This document shows, in pieces, positions 1,843-11,494 of a DNA stretch of 64,000 nucleotides. The notes under the pieces are model-generated. The model did not search any database, had not been told where the DNA came from, and worked only from the letters and a program-made list of their open reading frames with translations. Source of the stretch: Spirochaetia bacterium (GTDB lineage: Bacteria > Spirochaetota > UBA4802 > UBA5550). The stretch lies in the NCBI GenBank assembly GCA_009885955.1, contig VFJS01000031.1, positions 124,001 through 188,000 on the forward strand, written 5' to 3'. Within the stretch, counting starts at the first letter, position 1. Each line of letters opens with the position of its first letter. The position numbers and the translations under genes were made by a program.

Positions 1843-2508
1843 TTATACACCAGGCGCATTCCTTATACCTGTTATGATAGGGATTACATTCTCACTGGCA
1901 AGGAATTCAAATCCGAAGTTATTAGGTTCCAGCATGGATGCAGGAAATATTTTCCCATCCCTTACATTCATGTTGAAAAGAAGATCGAGATCTATTACCA
2001 GAGATTTATGATAGCTGATATTTTTGTTTTCAACCATCACTGATAGAAACCTGTCATTAATCGAATAACTTGCAAAAAAATGGCTTCCCGTATCCCTGAA
2101 CAGTACCCCCATTTTCCTGTTATCCAGAACTTCCAGCGTATTAATGATATTGGTTTCATGAACATTAAACCGGCTTTTCATAAGCTTCATCCCAGCTCCC
2201 ACCAGGTGCAGACAGTAGAATTGATCAATTCCCAGTATCTCCCTGAATATACAGACAATCTCCTCCACCTGCTCCCCGGCGCTCTTTGTTGCGAGGGATG
2301 AAACCCTGGCAGGTTTGGCTATGACGATATGGTTCGCCCCGAGGTGATAACCGTCGTTTCTTCCGATTATCACCGTTGAAATGCATGTCCCCAGGGCAAG
2401 AGATAAAGTCTGCCTGTCTTTAATGACCCTGATCTCGTTGAGACCCGGTATGCAGTACCTTTCATCGCTGCCAAGTATCTGTTTATCAAGCTTTAAATTA
2501 TATTTCAT
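1843..2508 (-). CDS. CheD-like chemoreceptor glutamine deamidase family protein
   Basis: A 221-residue protein resembling CheD, a cysteine hydrolase that deamidates specific glutamines in chemoreceptors. The CheD core is visible: ALGTCIS with the candidate catalytic Cys42, GANHIVI with candidate His60, and a later HLVGAGMKLM ... FRDTGSHF segment matching CheD's KLFGGA and GGxxGR regions. Spacing of Cys and His (18 residues) is close to that of known CheDs. It is longer than typical CheD (about 160 residues), with a C-terminal extension of about 60 residues. Its start overlaps the end of the upstream CULT gene by 11 bp, so the two are probably translated together. No other chemotaxis gene is in the window, so a non-chemotaxis substrate is possible. 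Divergence means the name is a family call, not a proven function. Confidence 0.72.
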   Translation of the reverse strand: MKYNLKLDKQILGSDERYCIPGLNEIRVIKDRQTLSLALGTCISTVIIGRNDGYHLGANHIVIAKPARVSSLATKSAGEQVEEIVCIFREILGIDQFYCLHLVGAGMKLMKSRFNVHETNIINTLEVLDNRKMGVLFRDTGSHFFASYSINDRFLSVMVENKNISYHKSLVIDLDLLFNMNVRDGKIFPASMLEPNNFGFEFLASENVIPIITGIRNAPGV

Positions 2509-2962
2509 TTTCTTCTATATTATCCAGTATAAGCCCGTAAAATCCTGCATTCCCTGAGGTATAATGCCATCCAAGATGTGCATGGCATACGGAACAGATA
2601 GCATATCGCCATAAAAATCCCGGGAACCAGGAATACTCCCCGGTATGAATCCCCATATTCATACATCCACGGGCTGATACATAGCACCCGATGTGAAAAA
2701 TGATGCCGGCCGGATTTTTAAAAACATGATAGTGGCGGCCATTAATTTCCATCATGTCTTTTTTTTTTGCCACAATATTTCTGCAGAACCTGCATACAAT
2801 AACGATTTCCCTCTCCTGTTCATCATCCTCTTCAGCCGATGCAGCGCTCTCCTCTCCTGCAGCAGGTTTTTCTAATTCTTTAAAAAAAATTATTTGCCCG
2901 GGAGAGATGAGGCCCCTGATATTGTCGAAATCAAATTTTGCCCTTGTAAAATCTGCTGCCAT
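2498..2962 (-). CDS. CULT-domain (cereblon-like) zinc protein
   Basis: A 154-residue protein whose residues 55-147 match the CULT domain, the thalidomide/cyclic-imide binding fold of human cereblon. Zinc ligands are Cys57/Cys60 and Cys123/Cys126. The aromatic cage tryptophans are all present: Trp112 and Trp118 in YSWFPGFLW and Trp132 in HLGWHY, equivalent to cereblon Trp380, Trp386 and Trp400. The Asn-Pro pair (83-84) equivalent to cereblon Asn351-Pro352 is also kept. The position of cereblon His378 is Tyr110 here, and Phe402 is Tyr134. Residues 1-54 are a short N-terminal segment with an acidic linker. Single-domain bacterial CULT proteins are known, but their biological role is not established. 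The gene overlaps the downstream cheD-like gene by 11 bp. Fold assignment is strong; the natural ligand is unknown. Confidence 0.9.
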   Translation of the reverse strand: MAADFTRAKFDFDNIRGLISPGQIIFFKELEKPAAGEESAASAEEDDEQEREIVIVCRFCRNIVAKKKDMMEINGRHYHVFKNPAGIIFHIGCYVSARGCMNMGIHTGEYSWFPGFLWRYAICSVCHAHLGWHYTSGNAGFYGLILDNIEENEI

Positions 2963-3181: not shown

Positions 3182-3364
3182 ATGAATACACCAACACACT
3201 GCCCTGGATTTGAATCATTCAAAAAACTTGAATCCTTTAAATGCAAGTGCCCGAAATGCAGCAAGGAAAACGAAATATTCTCTGATGAATTCAATAAAAA
3301 CCGGAAATGCTCCGGCTGCGGAGAATATATCGATTTCACAAAATGTTCACTTGTTCAGGGCTGA
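3182..3364 (+). CDS. small zinc-ribbon protein
   Basis: A 60-residue protein with two CxxC knuckles, CPKC at residues 23-26 and CSGC at 40-43, so it very likely binds one zinc (or iron) as a rubredoxin-like zinc ribbon. The start is supported by a good ribosome site (AGGAGA, 7 bp before ATG). Small proteins with this N-terminal CPGF and central CPKC pattern are found as stand-alone genes in anaerobes; I do not know a demonstrated function. It is transcribed alone, between the divergent CULT gene and the subtilase gene. Confidence 0.7.
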   Translation: MNTPTHCPGFESFKKLESFKCKCPKCSKENEIFSDEFNKNRKCSGCGEYIDFTKCSLVQG

Positions 3365-3473: not shown

Positions 3474-5039
3474 ATGGTAAATATTATTTTACCACAGATG
3501 CTAACATTTATGCCAAGAATTAATTTTTCTGTAAAAATACCGTTTTTTGCAGTTTCGTTATTAATAATTATCAGCAGCGCTTTATCCTGCTCAAATGACC
3601 ACAAAAAAAAGAAACTTCCCCTGGACCCTCTCTTCAAGGATCAATGGCATCTGCAAAATACAGGTCAGGGCGGCGGTATTCCCGGCATGGATATTAATGT
3701 AAGCAGCGCATGGAGCAGGGGATATTATGGATCGGGGATAAAGATAGCCATTGTTGACGATGGGCTCGACTACAACCATGAGGACCTTAAAGACAACATC
3801 CTGACCGCATATAACTATAATTATGTGACTGGTAATTCGATAATTAACAGCGGTTCACATGGCACCTGTGTGGCAGGCGTTGCAGCAGCGGTACATAACA
3901 ATGTCTATGGCGGGATGGGTGCCGCACCTGAAGCAAATCTCTTCGGGTACAACCTCCTGGTTGCATATACTGCAGTGAACGAACATAATGCCATGATTGG
4001 AAATCTGAATATCATCGATGTTTCAAATAACAGCTGGGGCCCTGCTGACGGAACAGGACAGTTGATCCCGTCTCCCATTACATGGCAGATGGGTATTGAT
4101 GAAGGTGTAACTTACGGAAGAAACGGGAAGGGAATAGTATATCTGTGGGCTGCTGGGAATGGCGGACAATCGGAAGTGGATAACTCCAACTATGACGGAT
4201 ATGCCAACTATTACGGCGTTACCGCAATTTGTGCCGTCACGGACCAGGGGACCAGGGCCTGGTATTCGGAAAAGGGAGCTAATCTCTGGGCCTGTACCTA
4301 TTCCAACGGCGGTAGTTCAGGAATAACAACTACTGACATAACAGGTTACGGAGGATATAAAACTTCTTCCAACTATTATAACGGCTTCGGCGGGACATCA
4401 TCGGCATCGCCACTTGCCGCGGGAATTGTCGCCCTCATTCTCGATGCCAACCCGAACCTCTCCTGGAGGGATGTGAAGAACATACTTGCCGGCTCGGCAA
4501 AGAAAATTGATCCAACAGACTCCGATTGGCAGACAAACGGAGCAGGTTATCATATAAATCATAAATACGGCTTTGGAGCTATTGATGCATCGGCGGCAGT
4601 GGACCTGGCCCTTACATGGACTAATCTTTCCGCCATGAAAACTGCAACAGCATCATTAATAACACTTAACCAGCCAATCCCTGAAAATAGCAGCGGCATT
4701 ACATCCACTTCAACAGTGACTGGGACCGGCATAACCCATATTGAATACATGACATTAGCGATCGACATCAATCATTCCTATTCAGGAGACCTGGAAATTT
4801 CCCTTAAATCTCCAGCAAATACAGTAAGCATCCTGTCGGAAGAACATATATGCTGGGATGATTCCGGCATCAATCAGGCGACATGCACCTATTTCCAGGG
4901 CGGCAATAGCTTCACCTTCGGTACTGCCAGAAACCTGGAAGAAGCTGCCGACGGCCTTTGGACATTAACAGTTAAAGACCTTGCATCAGGGGATATCGGG
5001 ACAACGACAAGCTGGCACCTTACGTTTTACGGGAGATGA
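3474..5039 (+). CDS. subtilisin/kexin-like serine protease lipoprotein with P domain, lacking a propeptide
   Basis: An S8 family serine protease of kexin type. A hydrophobic signal segment (residues 20-38) ends in a lipobox with Cys39 (SALSC), so the mature protein is predicted to be a lipoprotein. The catalytic triad is visible: Asp95 in IVDDGLD, His129 in GSHGTCVAGV and Ser309 in GTSSASP; the oxyanion Asn lies in SNNSWGP. A proprotein-convertase P domain follows at about residues 400-521, with the typical SGDLEISLKSP and DGLWTLTVKD segments. The catalytic domain begins almost immediately after the lipobox (LDPLFKDQWHLQNTGQ is the usual first segment of the mature enzyme), so no propeptide is present. 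The start codon is uncertain; ATGs at 3498 and 3510 are equally possible and none has a clear ribosome site. The stop overlaps the next gene by 4 bp. Confidence 0.92.
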   Translation: MVNIILPQMLTFMPRINFSVKIPFFAVSLLIIISSALSCSNDHKKKKLPLDPLFKDQWHLQNTGQGGGIPGMDINVSSAWSRGYYGSGIKIAIVDDGLDYNHEDLKDNILTAYNYNYVTGNSIINSGSHGTCVAGVAAAVHNNVYGGMGAAPEANLFGYNLLVAYTAVNEHNAMIGNLNIIDVSNNSWGPADGTGQLIPSPITWQMGIDEGVTYGRNGKGIVYLWAAGNGGQSEVDNSNYDGYANYYGVTAICAVTDQGTRAWYSEKGANLWACTYSNGGSSGITTTDITGYGGYKTSSNYYNGFGGTSSASPLAAGIVALILDANPNLSWRDVKNILAGSAKKIDPTDSDWQTNGAGYHINHKYGFGAIDASAAVDLALTWTNLSAMKTATASLITLNQPIPENSSGITSTSTVTGTGITHIEYMTLAIDINHSYSGDLEISLKSPANTVSILSEEHICWDDSGINQATCTYFQGGNSFTFGTARNLEEAADGLWTLTVKDLASGDIGTTTSWHLTFYGR

Positions 5040-5662
5040 AGGGGATGATAAAAAAAAATTCTCTTAAAATAACATGCCTCACCATTCCATTCGCAGCGCT
5101 ATTATTCATTAATTTTCCATTCCTTTCTTTATCATCAGCCCAGAACCTGAACTATGAGATTGTTCATTACAGCGAAGGTAAAAAAAGCCATACATTAAAA
5201 CTTCTCCATGAAGAGATCGCAGAAATTAACGGGGATAATGACGGCCAGGAAAGGGGCAAAGGCATTAATGATGACAAAGCCGAATTGATTTCAGAGAAAA
5301 AAAATATAAGGCTGTGGAAAGTGACGGTTGATTGGCACAGGGCTTATTTCAGCAAGGGGCGCCAGGCTGGTGATATAAAAGGGACCTATTCGCCGGTTTT
5401 CATTGATCCCTCAGGGAGAAAAAGGGTTCTGCCGGGAAATATAATTGTTTTCATGAAAAAAGGAATGAACGAGGGGGATGTCATAACATGGGCCGGCGCG
5501 AAGGGGCTTAAAATTATAAAAATTGTATCCCGGTACAGCAATTCCTATGTTTTATCTACCCCGCCCGGAATTGAAAGCCTGAATATGTCCAATGAGCTTA
5601 ATAATGACGAATCGGTTGTTGCATCTACTCCAGACTGGTGGACCGAAGTATTTCACAGGTAG
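5036..5662 (+). CDS. secreted stand-alone subtilase propeptide-like protein
   Basis: A 208-residue protein with a signal peptide (hydrophobic residues 10-33, likely cleavage after SSA). Its start overlaps the protease stop (ATGA), so the two are translationally coupled. The C-terminal half (PSGRKRVLPGNIIVFMK, then KGLKIIKIVSRYSNSYVLSTP, then DESVVASTPDWW) looks like the propeptide that normally precedes the mature domain of kexin/fervidolysin-type subtilases, ending where the mature domain would start. The neighbouring protease lacks this region. Such propeptides act as folding chaperones and inhibitors, so I infer that this protein folds and/or inhibits the protease in trans. The middle (residues 60-95) is charged and low complexity. 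The similarity is from pattern reading and has not been aligned. Confidence 0.65.
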   Translation: MKGMIKKNSLKITCLTIPFAALLFINFPFLSLSSAQNLNYEIVHYSEGKKSHTLKLLHEEIAEINGDNDGQERGKGINDDKAELISEKKNIRLWKVTVDWHRAYFSKGRQAGDIKGTYSPVFIDPSGRKRVLPGNIIVFMKKGMNEGDVITWAGAKGLKIIKIVSRYSNSYVLSTPPGIESLNMSNELNNDESVVASTPDWWTEVFHR

Positions 5663-10369: not shown

Positions 10370-11494
10370 CTATAACACATTCAGATTAATTCCTTCATCC
10401 TGATACTGCCCATACCTCTTCTCAAAAATATAATCCCAGAACTCCCTCATCTCCAGGGGACTGGTTTCAAAATAGATGAGGTGGCTCCGGCATGAACAGT
10501 CCGATGATCCGAAACGGTCAACAGGGATACCATTTAACCCTCTCATTCCAGCAGCAAGAATGCATTCATCTATGTCTGTCGAAAGTACCGGGATGTCGGC
10601 TATGATTTTCATCTCAGTTTTGATGTAATCGATGTGCCAGTGCCTTGACTTCTGCATCTGCCGATGCCTGGCGATCCTCTTGAATATGTTGGCCCCGCCG
10701 TTCCCTGCATAGGCATAATATCCGGCCCGATATACTATCTTCCCAAGGCCGCCTGTATCTATGCATCTGTCTTTATCATTCTTAAAAATAACAAGGTAGC
10801 TCCCCATGGGAAGCGCCTCCGGGATAATCACGGAAACCTTTTGTACATCTTTAATCTTATAATCATCTCCGAAATCCAGTGAATAGGCGCGGATGTCGAT
10901 TCGATCACGGTTGTTGCGGAGGGACATATAGAAGTCATAATCTGTATGGTAGTTGGGGACAAAAAATTTCACCCCGCGGTGCATGATGAGGAAAACAACA
11001 ATGCCCCTCCCAGACTCTGCCAGCATCTCAACATGCTTCGACGCCCTGGCGCTCACTGCATCGGGAAATGCAGACACGTCCTTCCATGCCAGGGTGCAGG
11101 ACTTGAGCTCGATGAAATACTCCTGGCCATTGCCGTTCCGGACCAGGATGTCGAATCGGTGCCTGCCGTATGCCGGTTCCATGCTCGATATCCGGTATGT
11201 ATCAAGCCCGTCGATCATCCCCTCCTCCATGAGCCCTGCAGCCAGGTGATTACTGAAGATGGAATCTATCATCACCGGATATCCTTTATAATAGATGAAA
11301 ACAATTTTATATGGATAAACGCCTCCAGAAGGGACCATGACCACAAGGGAACCGGGAATTGCAAGTTCAGCCATCCTGCCGGTGTTCGGGACATATACCT
11401 TGATAACATCTCCATTCAGGTTTACAAAAGCTACAAACCGGTTGATACGTTTGATAAGTTCAGCTTCAATGAAGCCACCTTCCGGTTTTTTCAT
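10370..11494 (-). CDS. sfsA: SfsA nuclease-like protein fused to a DUF123 (GIY-YIG-like) domain
   Basis: A 374-residue two-domain protein. Residues 1-225 are SfsA (formerly sugar fermentation stimulation protein), an OB-fold DNA-binding module plus a restriction-endonuclease-like fold; the nuclease-type motif is visible as RFDILVRNG ... YFIELKSCTL, and PNTGRM near residue 37 is the SfsA N-terminal signature. Residues about 230-355 are DUF123, with GSYLVIF, YAYAGNGG and RHWHIDYI, resembling the GIY-YIG nuclease fold. Fusion of SfsA and DUF123 joins two nuclease-like modules; a role in nucleic-acid processing is inferred. The last about 20 residues are unique. Start is supported by AGGAT upstream. 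Confidence 0.85.
   Translation of the reverse strand: MKKPEGGFIEAELIKRINRFVAFVNLNGDVIKVYVPNTGRMAELAIPGSLVVMVPSGGVYPYKIVFIYYKGYPVMIDSIFSNHLAAGLMEEGMIDGLDTYRISSMEPAYGRHRFDILVRNGNGQEYFIELKSCTLAWKDVSAFPDAVSARASKHVEMLAESGRGIVVFLIMHRGVKFFVPNYHTDYDFYMSLRNNRDRIDIRAYSLDFGDDYKIKDVQKVSVIIPEALPMGSYLVIFKNDKDRCIDTGGLGKIVYRAGYYAYAGNGGANIFKRIARHRQMQKSRHWHIDYIKTEMKIIADIPVLSTDIDECILAAGMRGLNGIPVDRFGSSDCSCRSHLIYFETSPLEMREFWDYIFEKRYGQYQDEGINLNVL

Follow-up and report, generated by a model that had tools for sequence, protein, structure and literature searches.

The CULT/CheD-A locus

Two overlapping genes on the reverse strand were followed up within the window, the 64,000-nucleotide stretch of spirochaete DNA that was analysed as a whole. 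The upstream gene encodes a small cereblon-like protein with a CULT domain, and the downstream gene encodes a protein with a divergent CheD fold, here called CheD-A (Table 1). Direct reading of the window sequence places both open reading frames (ORFs) and their overlap where a preliminary description of this DNA had put them. The overlap implies co-translation and, as such an overlap usually reflects some selection, it counts against mere shuffling of the genes. The vicinity of the pair was scanned for promoters and terminators, and promoter matches were no more numerous than in shuffled sequences.

Table 1. Genes, overlap and key residues of the CULT/CheD-A locus (window coordinates)
Feature	Position	Strand	Remarks
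CULT-domain gene (bacterial cereblon-like, MsCI4 type)	2498..2962	-	154 aa; CULT domain at about residues 54-151
First zinc Cys pair, C57 and C60	2783..2794	-	Invariant in 22 CULT proteins
Asn83-Pro84, NPxG hairpin tip	2711..2716	-	Invariant in 22 CULT proteins
Trp112, cage residue (MsCI4 W79)	2627..2629	-	Invariant in 22; aligned to MsCI4
Trp118, cage residue (MsCI4 W85)	2609..2611	-	Invariant in 22
Second zinc Cys pair, C123 and C126	2585..2596	-	Invariant in 22
Trp132, third cage tryptophan	2567..2569	-	Invariant in 22
11-bp overlap	2498..2508	-	ATGAAATATAA; CheD-A start ATG within last CULT codons; read directly
Divergent CheD-fold gene, CheD-A	1843..2508	-	221 aa, with a conserved stretch of about 70 residues appended at the C-terminus; putative Cys-His(-Ser) amidohydrolase
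Ser36 (TmCheD Thr21/NTAN1 Ser69 position)	2401..2403	-	Ser or Thr in 8 of 10 orthologues; the other two have Ala or Ile
Cys42 (TmCheD Cys27 position)	2383..2385	-	Invariant in 10 CheD-A orthologues; alignments
His60 (TmCheD His44 position)	2329..2331	-	Invariant in 10 CheD-A orthologues; alignments

Other genes of the window were noted in passing. Divergent from the CULT gene is a small ORF at 3183-3364 (+), some 60 aa long, whose two CxxC pairs resemble a zinc ribbon. Next, judged by reading, comes a subtilisin-like protease gene at 3474-5662 (+) with a P-domain-like end and then an overlapping gene for a secreted protein of 208 aa. Further along, an ORF at 10370-11494 (-) reads like a fusion of an SfsA-type protein with a DUF123/GIY-YIG-like part at its C-terminus.

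The CULT protein

The best match of the CULT protein in the PDB is MsCI4 of Magnetospirillum gryphiswaldense (4v2y; phmmer E 7.7e-25), and human cereblon (CRBN) is matched at an E of about 1e-8. A profile made from 22 orthologues finds MsCI4 at E 3e-36. Even the single-sequence value, in round figures 8e-25, is far beyond chance, and the identification of the gene as CULT in the preliminary description can be accepted. With Pfam and NCBIfam, the window protein matches Yippee alone, below the cut-off. Eleven residues (C57, C60, N83, P84, G86, W112, W118, C123, C126, W132 and Y134) do not vary among 22 aligned CULT sequences from related genomes. They include the tri-Trp cage, Asn83-Pro84 and both zinc Cys pairs, all of which had been correctly named and called intact beforehand; the NPxG motif of CULT domains has been described (PMC4449219). 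As the cage, NPxG and Cys residues are invariant, the pocket known from crystal structures is intact and, to judge by these residues, should form an aromatic cage of the MsCI4 kind able to bind cyclic imides or uracil.

The window protein resembles MsCI4 and the bacterial CULT group of PMC4287342 in consisting of the CULT domain only, with the cage, the NPxG tip and the zinc site, and in having no added catalytic domain. It differs from MsCI4 in an N-terminal extension of some 50 residues, in having Phe116 at the position of MsCI4 Tyr83 and in the overlapping CheD-fold gene downstream. Compared with cereblon, the CULT domain is homologous, but the window protein has neither the Lon-like domain nor the E3 ligase context. 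By analogy with MsCI4 and human CRBN, the most probable ligand of the window protein is either a small molecule resembling a cyclic imide or a cyclic imide at the C-terminus of proteins. The protein would then be soluble and bind a cyclic-imide-like group, whether carried by a small molecule or by a protein C-terminus. In the literature that we found, no natural ligand or partner of a bacterial CULT protein is named.

The survey of CULT genes covered Spirochaetota, the nearest 393 genomes all lying within this phylum. The domain is present in 29 of the 46 genomes of the window's class versus 3 of about 347 from the rest of the phylum, which adds a Spirochaetota clade in which CULT is common. 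Plasmids, phages and IMG/VR contigs were searched and contained no CULT relative at the limits used, giving no support to a mobile origin. One isolated CULT gene outside the class (L160:6010-7834; G193:C35) is flanked on either side by a PIN-domain-like toxin gene, shares 4 bp with a small ORF and is possibly a horizontally acquired cassette.

CheD-A, a divergent member of the CheD superfamily

Taken alone, the CheD-A protein of the window has no match in Pfam, in NCBIfam or in a PDB sequence search. Its AlphaFold2 model (pLDDT 83.0, pTM 0.84) has as top Foldseek match in the PDB the CheD of T. maritima (TmCheD; 2f9z_C, E 3.4e-7, probability 1.00), with human NTAN1 next (E 3.4e-3). At the level of profiles, CheD-A aligns with the canonical CheDs of the same genomes at 96% probability (hhalign), and CheD-A and other CheD-family profiles detect one another's families. 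The Pfam CheD model is matched by three of the ten CheD-A orthologues, with a best E of 0.018. We regard the homology to CheD as remote in sequence and firm in the predicted structure. PCNA, the top PDB match of the CheD-A profile, was rejected, as the match is a single weak stretch that occurs three times in a PCNA fusion, with an i-Evalue of 33 each time. The family numbers ten with the window protein, to which the others are 40-49% identical, and all ten belong to the window's class; a scan of genome contigs gave seven loci, all in Spirochaetota MAGs. CheD-A thus adds a divergent CheD-fold family for which Pfam has no model.

The Cys42 and His60 singled out as CheD-like in the preliminary description are present, invariant in all ten orthologues and, in sequence alignments, from which the pairing was judged, equivalent to TmCheD Cys27 and His44. 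The third residue of the triad is Thr21 in CheD and Ser69 in NTAN1 (PMC7022378); Ser36 occupies this position in CheD-A. The ten-sequence alignment further reveals a conserved C-terminal appendage ending in an FITG-like motif.

CheD-A nevertheless departs from the CheD of chemotaxis. The Pfam model PF03975 finds four canonical CheDs in the window's genome and misses CheD-A. In a tree of 25 proteins, CheD-A together with a second divergent family, CheD-B, is split from canonical CheD at 100/99 support, CheD-A lying outside the canonical clade. Met101 and Phe102 of B. subtilis CheD are required both to deamidate receptors and to bind CheC (PMC3513319), and in CheD-A these positions are aligned to Lys108 and Leu109. 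The Pfam miss, the separate branch, the loss of CheC/receptor-contact residues and the C-terminal appendage together mean that CheD-A is not a canonical CheD; from TmCheD, whose fold and Cys/His pair it shares, it differs in all these respects and in the change of Thr21 to Ser36. The term 'CheD-like deamidase' used in the preliminary description therefore suits the fold and the Cys/His pair but not a chemotaxis CheD. It is improbable that CheD-A is a chemotaxis paralogue acting on chemoreceptors and unrelated to CULT, since the fold and the Cys-His pair, which would fit this, stand against the four canonical CheDs already present, the separate branch, the lost contact residues and the failure to recognise CheC or any che gene among the annotated neighbours of the ten copies.

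NTAN1, the N-terminal Asn amidohydrolase (6a0f), matches CheD-A in fold only, with 11-13% identity in the structural alignment. Each protein carries an appended C-terminal region; that of NTAN1 confers its specificity for terminal Asn (PMC7022378). CheD-A may be described as a putative divergent cysteine amidohydrolase of the CheD superfamily, its activity being what we infer from the fold and the Cys-His pair. Most likely it would deamidate a protein other than a chemoreceptor by way of the Cys nucleophile, and the conserved appendage may set its specificity, as in NTAN1.

CheD-B, found in the same class (L012, L013, L014 and L016-L021), has the motif GxNHLFKxR and an invariant Cys and His, and is distinct from both canonical CheD and CheD-A. 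Two genomes of genus g4 have a histone-deacetylase-family gene downstream of CheD-A (L058:8928-11181, PF00850; L061:7163-9082).

Conservation of the gene pair

The preliminary description had suggested that the CULT protein and the CheD-like protein share a role in making, sensing or repairing modified Gln or Asn residues, and adjacency of their genes in other genomes had been set beforehand as a test. CheD-A is present in 10 of the 46 genomes of the class, and all ten also carry CULT. The two genes are adjacent in one of these ten, that of the window, and lie on different contigs in the other nine, where both flanks of every CheD-A gene are visible and the immediate flanks contain no CULT gene. 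Viewed from the CULT side, the adjacency is seen at one of 31 readable loci, and none of the other 30 has a CheD of any kind beside it; the class loci were scanned with HMMs for CheD-A, CheD-B and canonical CheD and the three beyond the class were examined by eye, several loci being at contig ends with some neighbours thus out of view. The surroundings of CULT change between genera: nearly all of the 20 same-strand genes that lie no more than 150 bp from CULT at the 31 loci are unrelated. The neighbours of CheD-A also vary among genomes. As the adjacency is absent from related genomes, a shared job for the two proteins is not supported.

Co-occurrence provides weak support for a shared role. 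Within the class, CULT is found in 10/10 genomes with CheD-A versus 19/36 without it (Fisher 0.005); within the two families that have CheD-A the value is 0.047, and these figures are uncorrected for phylogeny and MAG incompleteness. The 19 CULT-positive genomes of the class that have no CheD-A mean that CULT does not need CheD-A. The chance of one co-directional CULT/CheD-A adjacency in ten genomes is about 0.002, and that of adjacency to any CheD-type gene over 29 CULT loci is about 0.04.

The reading that we prefer, with a probability of about 0.72, is that the locus encodes two distinct proteins of a single domain each, which in this lineage are co-translated and need not share a function, the adjacency being lineage-specific. 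It probably arose through ordinary gene shuffling.

It is unlikely, by comparison, that the two form a functional pair in which CheD-A acts on Gln/Asn or a derived cyclic imide and CULT senses or sequesters the imide form. Such a pair would agree with the 11-bp overlap, with a CULT pocket and a CheD-A Cys/His that are both intact and with the confinement of CheD-A to CULT-positive genomes. We know of no CheD that makes or opens an imide, which counts against the pair, as do the single adjacency among ten genomes and the 19 CULT-positive genomes already mentioned. The CheD fold does include a terminal-Asn deamidase, NTAN1, with a specificity that comes from its C-terminal region, and CheD-A also has a conserved region there, but deamidation in the CheD family proceeds via a Cys nucleophile (PMC7022378).

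PIMT, Lon and other neighbours of CULT

The genome G005 belongs to the same family as that of the window. In it, a gene for a protein-L-isoaspartate methyltransferase (PIMT; PF01135, 133 bits) is overlapped for 17 bp by the start of the CULT gene on the same strand (L069:306-1404; G005:C23). In G006, a Lon gene begins 140 bp downstream of CULT (L070:190-3245; G006:C4); it reads as two ORFs, a LON/AAA part and a Lon_C part, and is either an interrupted Lon or the product of an assembly frameshift. The other co-directional neighbours of CULT include genes for a lipid A acyltransferase, NIF3, RadA, a PP-loop ATPase and a glycosyltransferase. Just upstream of the PIMT-CULT pair in G005 is a gene for an MlaE permease.

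Both neighbours recall human proteins. PCMT1, a human PIMT, converts C-terminal Asn to a cyclic imide that cereblon recognises (PMC11974815), and in cereblon itself CULT is combined with an N-terminal domain that is Lon-like (PMC4287342). The overlap in G005 is an independent, single-genome hint that bacterial CULT proteins handle damaged Asn, Asp or Gln. It could be argued that bacterial CULT reads the C-terminal cyclic imides that PIMT produces and may supply an ATP-dependent protease, for example Lon, and that the partner differs between genomes (PIMT in G005, Lon in G006 and CheD-A in that of the window) around a common theme of Asn/Gln damage. Both neighbours and both human parallels favour this, but each bacterial case comes from one genome and was picked out post hoc from some 20 neighbours on the same strand, the majority of them unrelated, and PIMT genes are found in all 46 genomes of the class whether CULT is present or absent. 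We give the proposal little credence; the two cases are suggestive, and constitute grounds for a wider survey rather than a result.

A broader version of the same idea, which we hold to be a long shot, is a bacterial protein-damage pathway in which PIMT or an amidohydrolase of the NTAN1/CheD fold would make or repair C-terminal cyclic imides, free-standing CULT would read them and Lon would possibly serve as the protease. Such a pathway would be a prokaryotic counterpart, and might be an ancestor, of the PCMT1-cereblon degron pathway. The PIMT overlap in G005 offers a cheap and direct way to ask whether cyclic-imide reading of the human-cereblon type predates eukaryotes.

A different arrangement is conserved in genus g4 (L064, L071, L073, L074, L076 and L080), where, by reading, the CULT gene is convergent with an anti-sigma-factor-like gene 1 bp away, which is followed by a gene for an ECF sigma factor.
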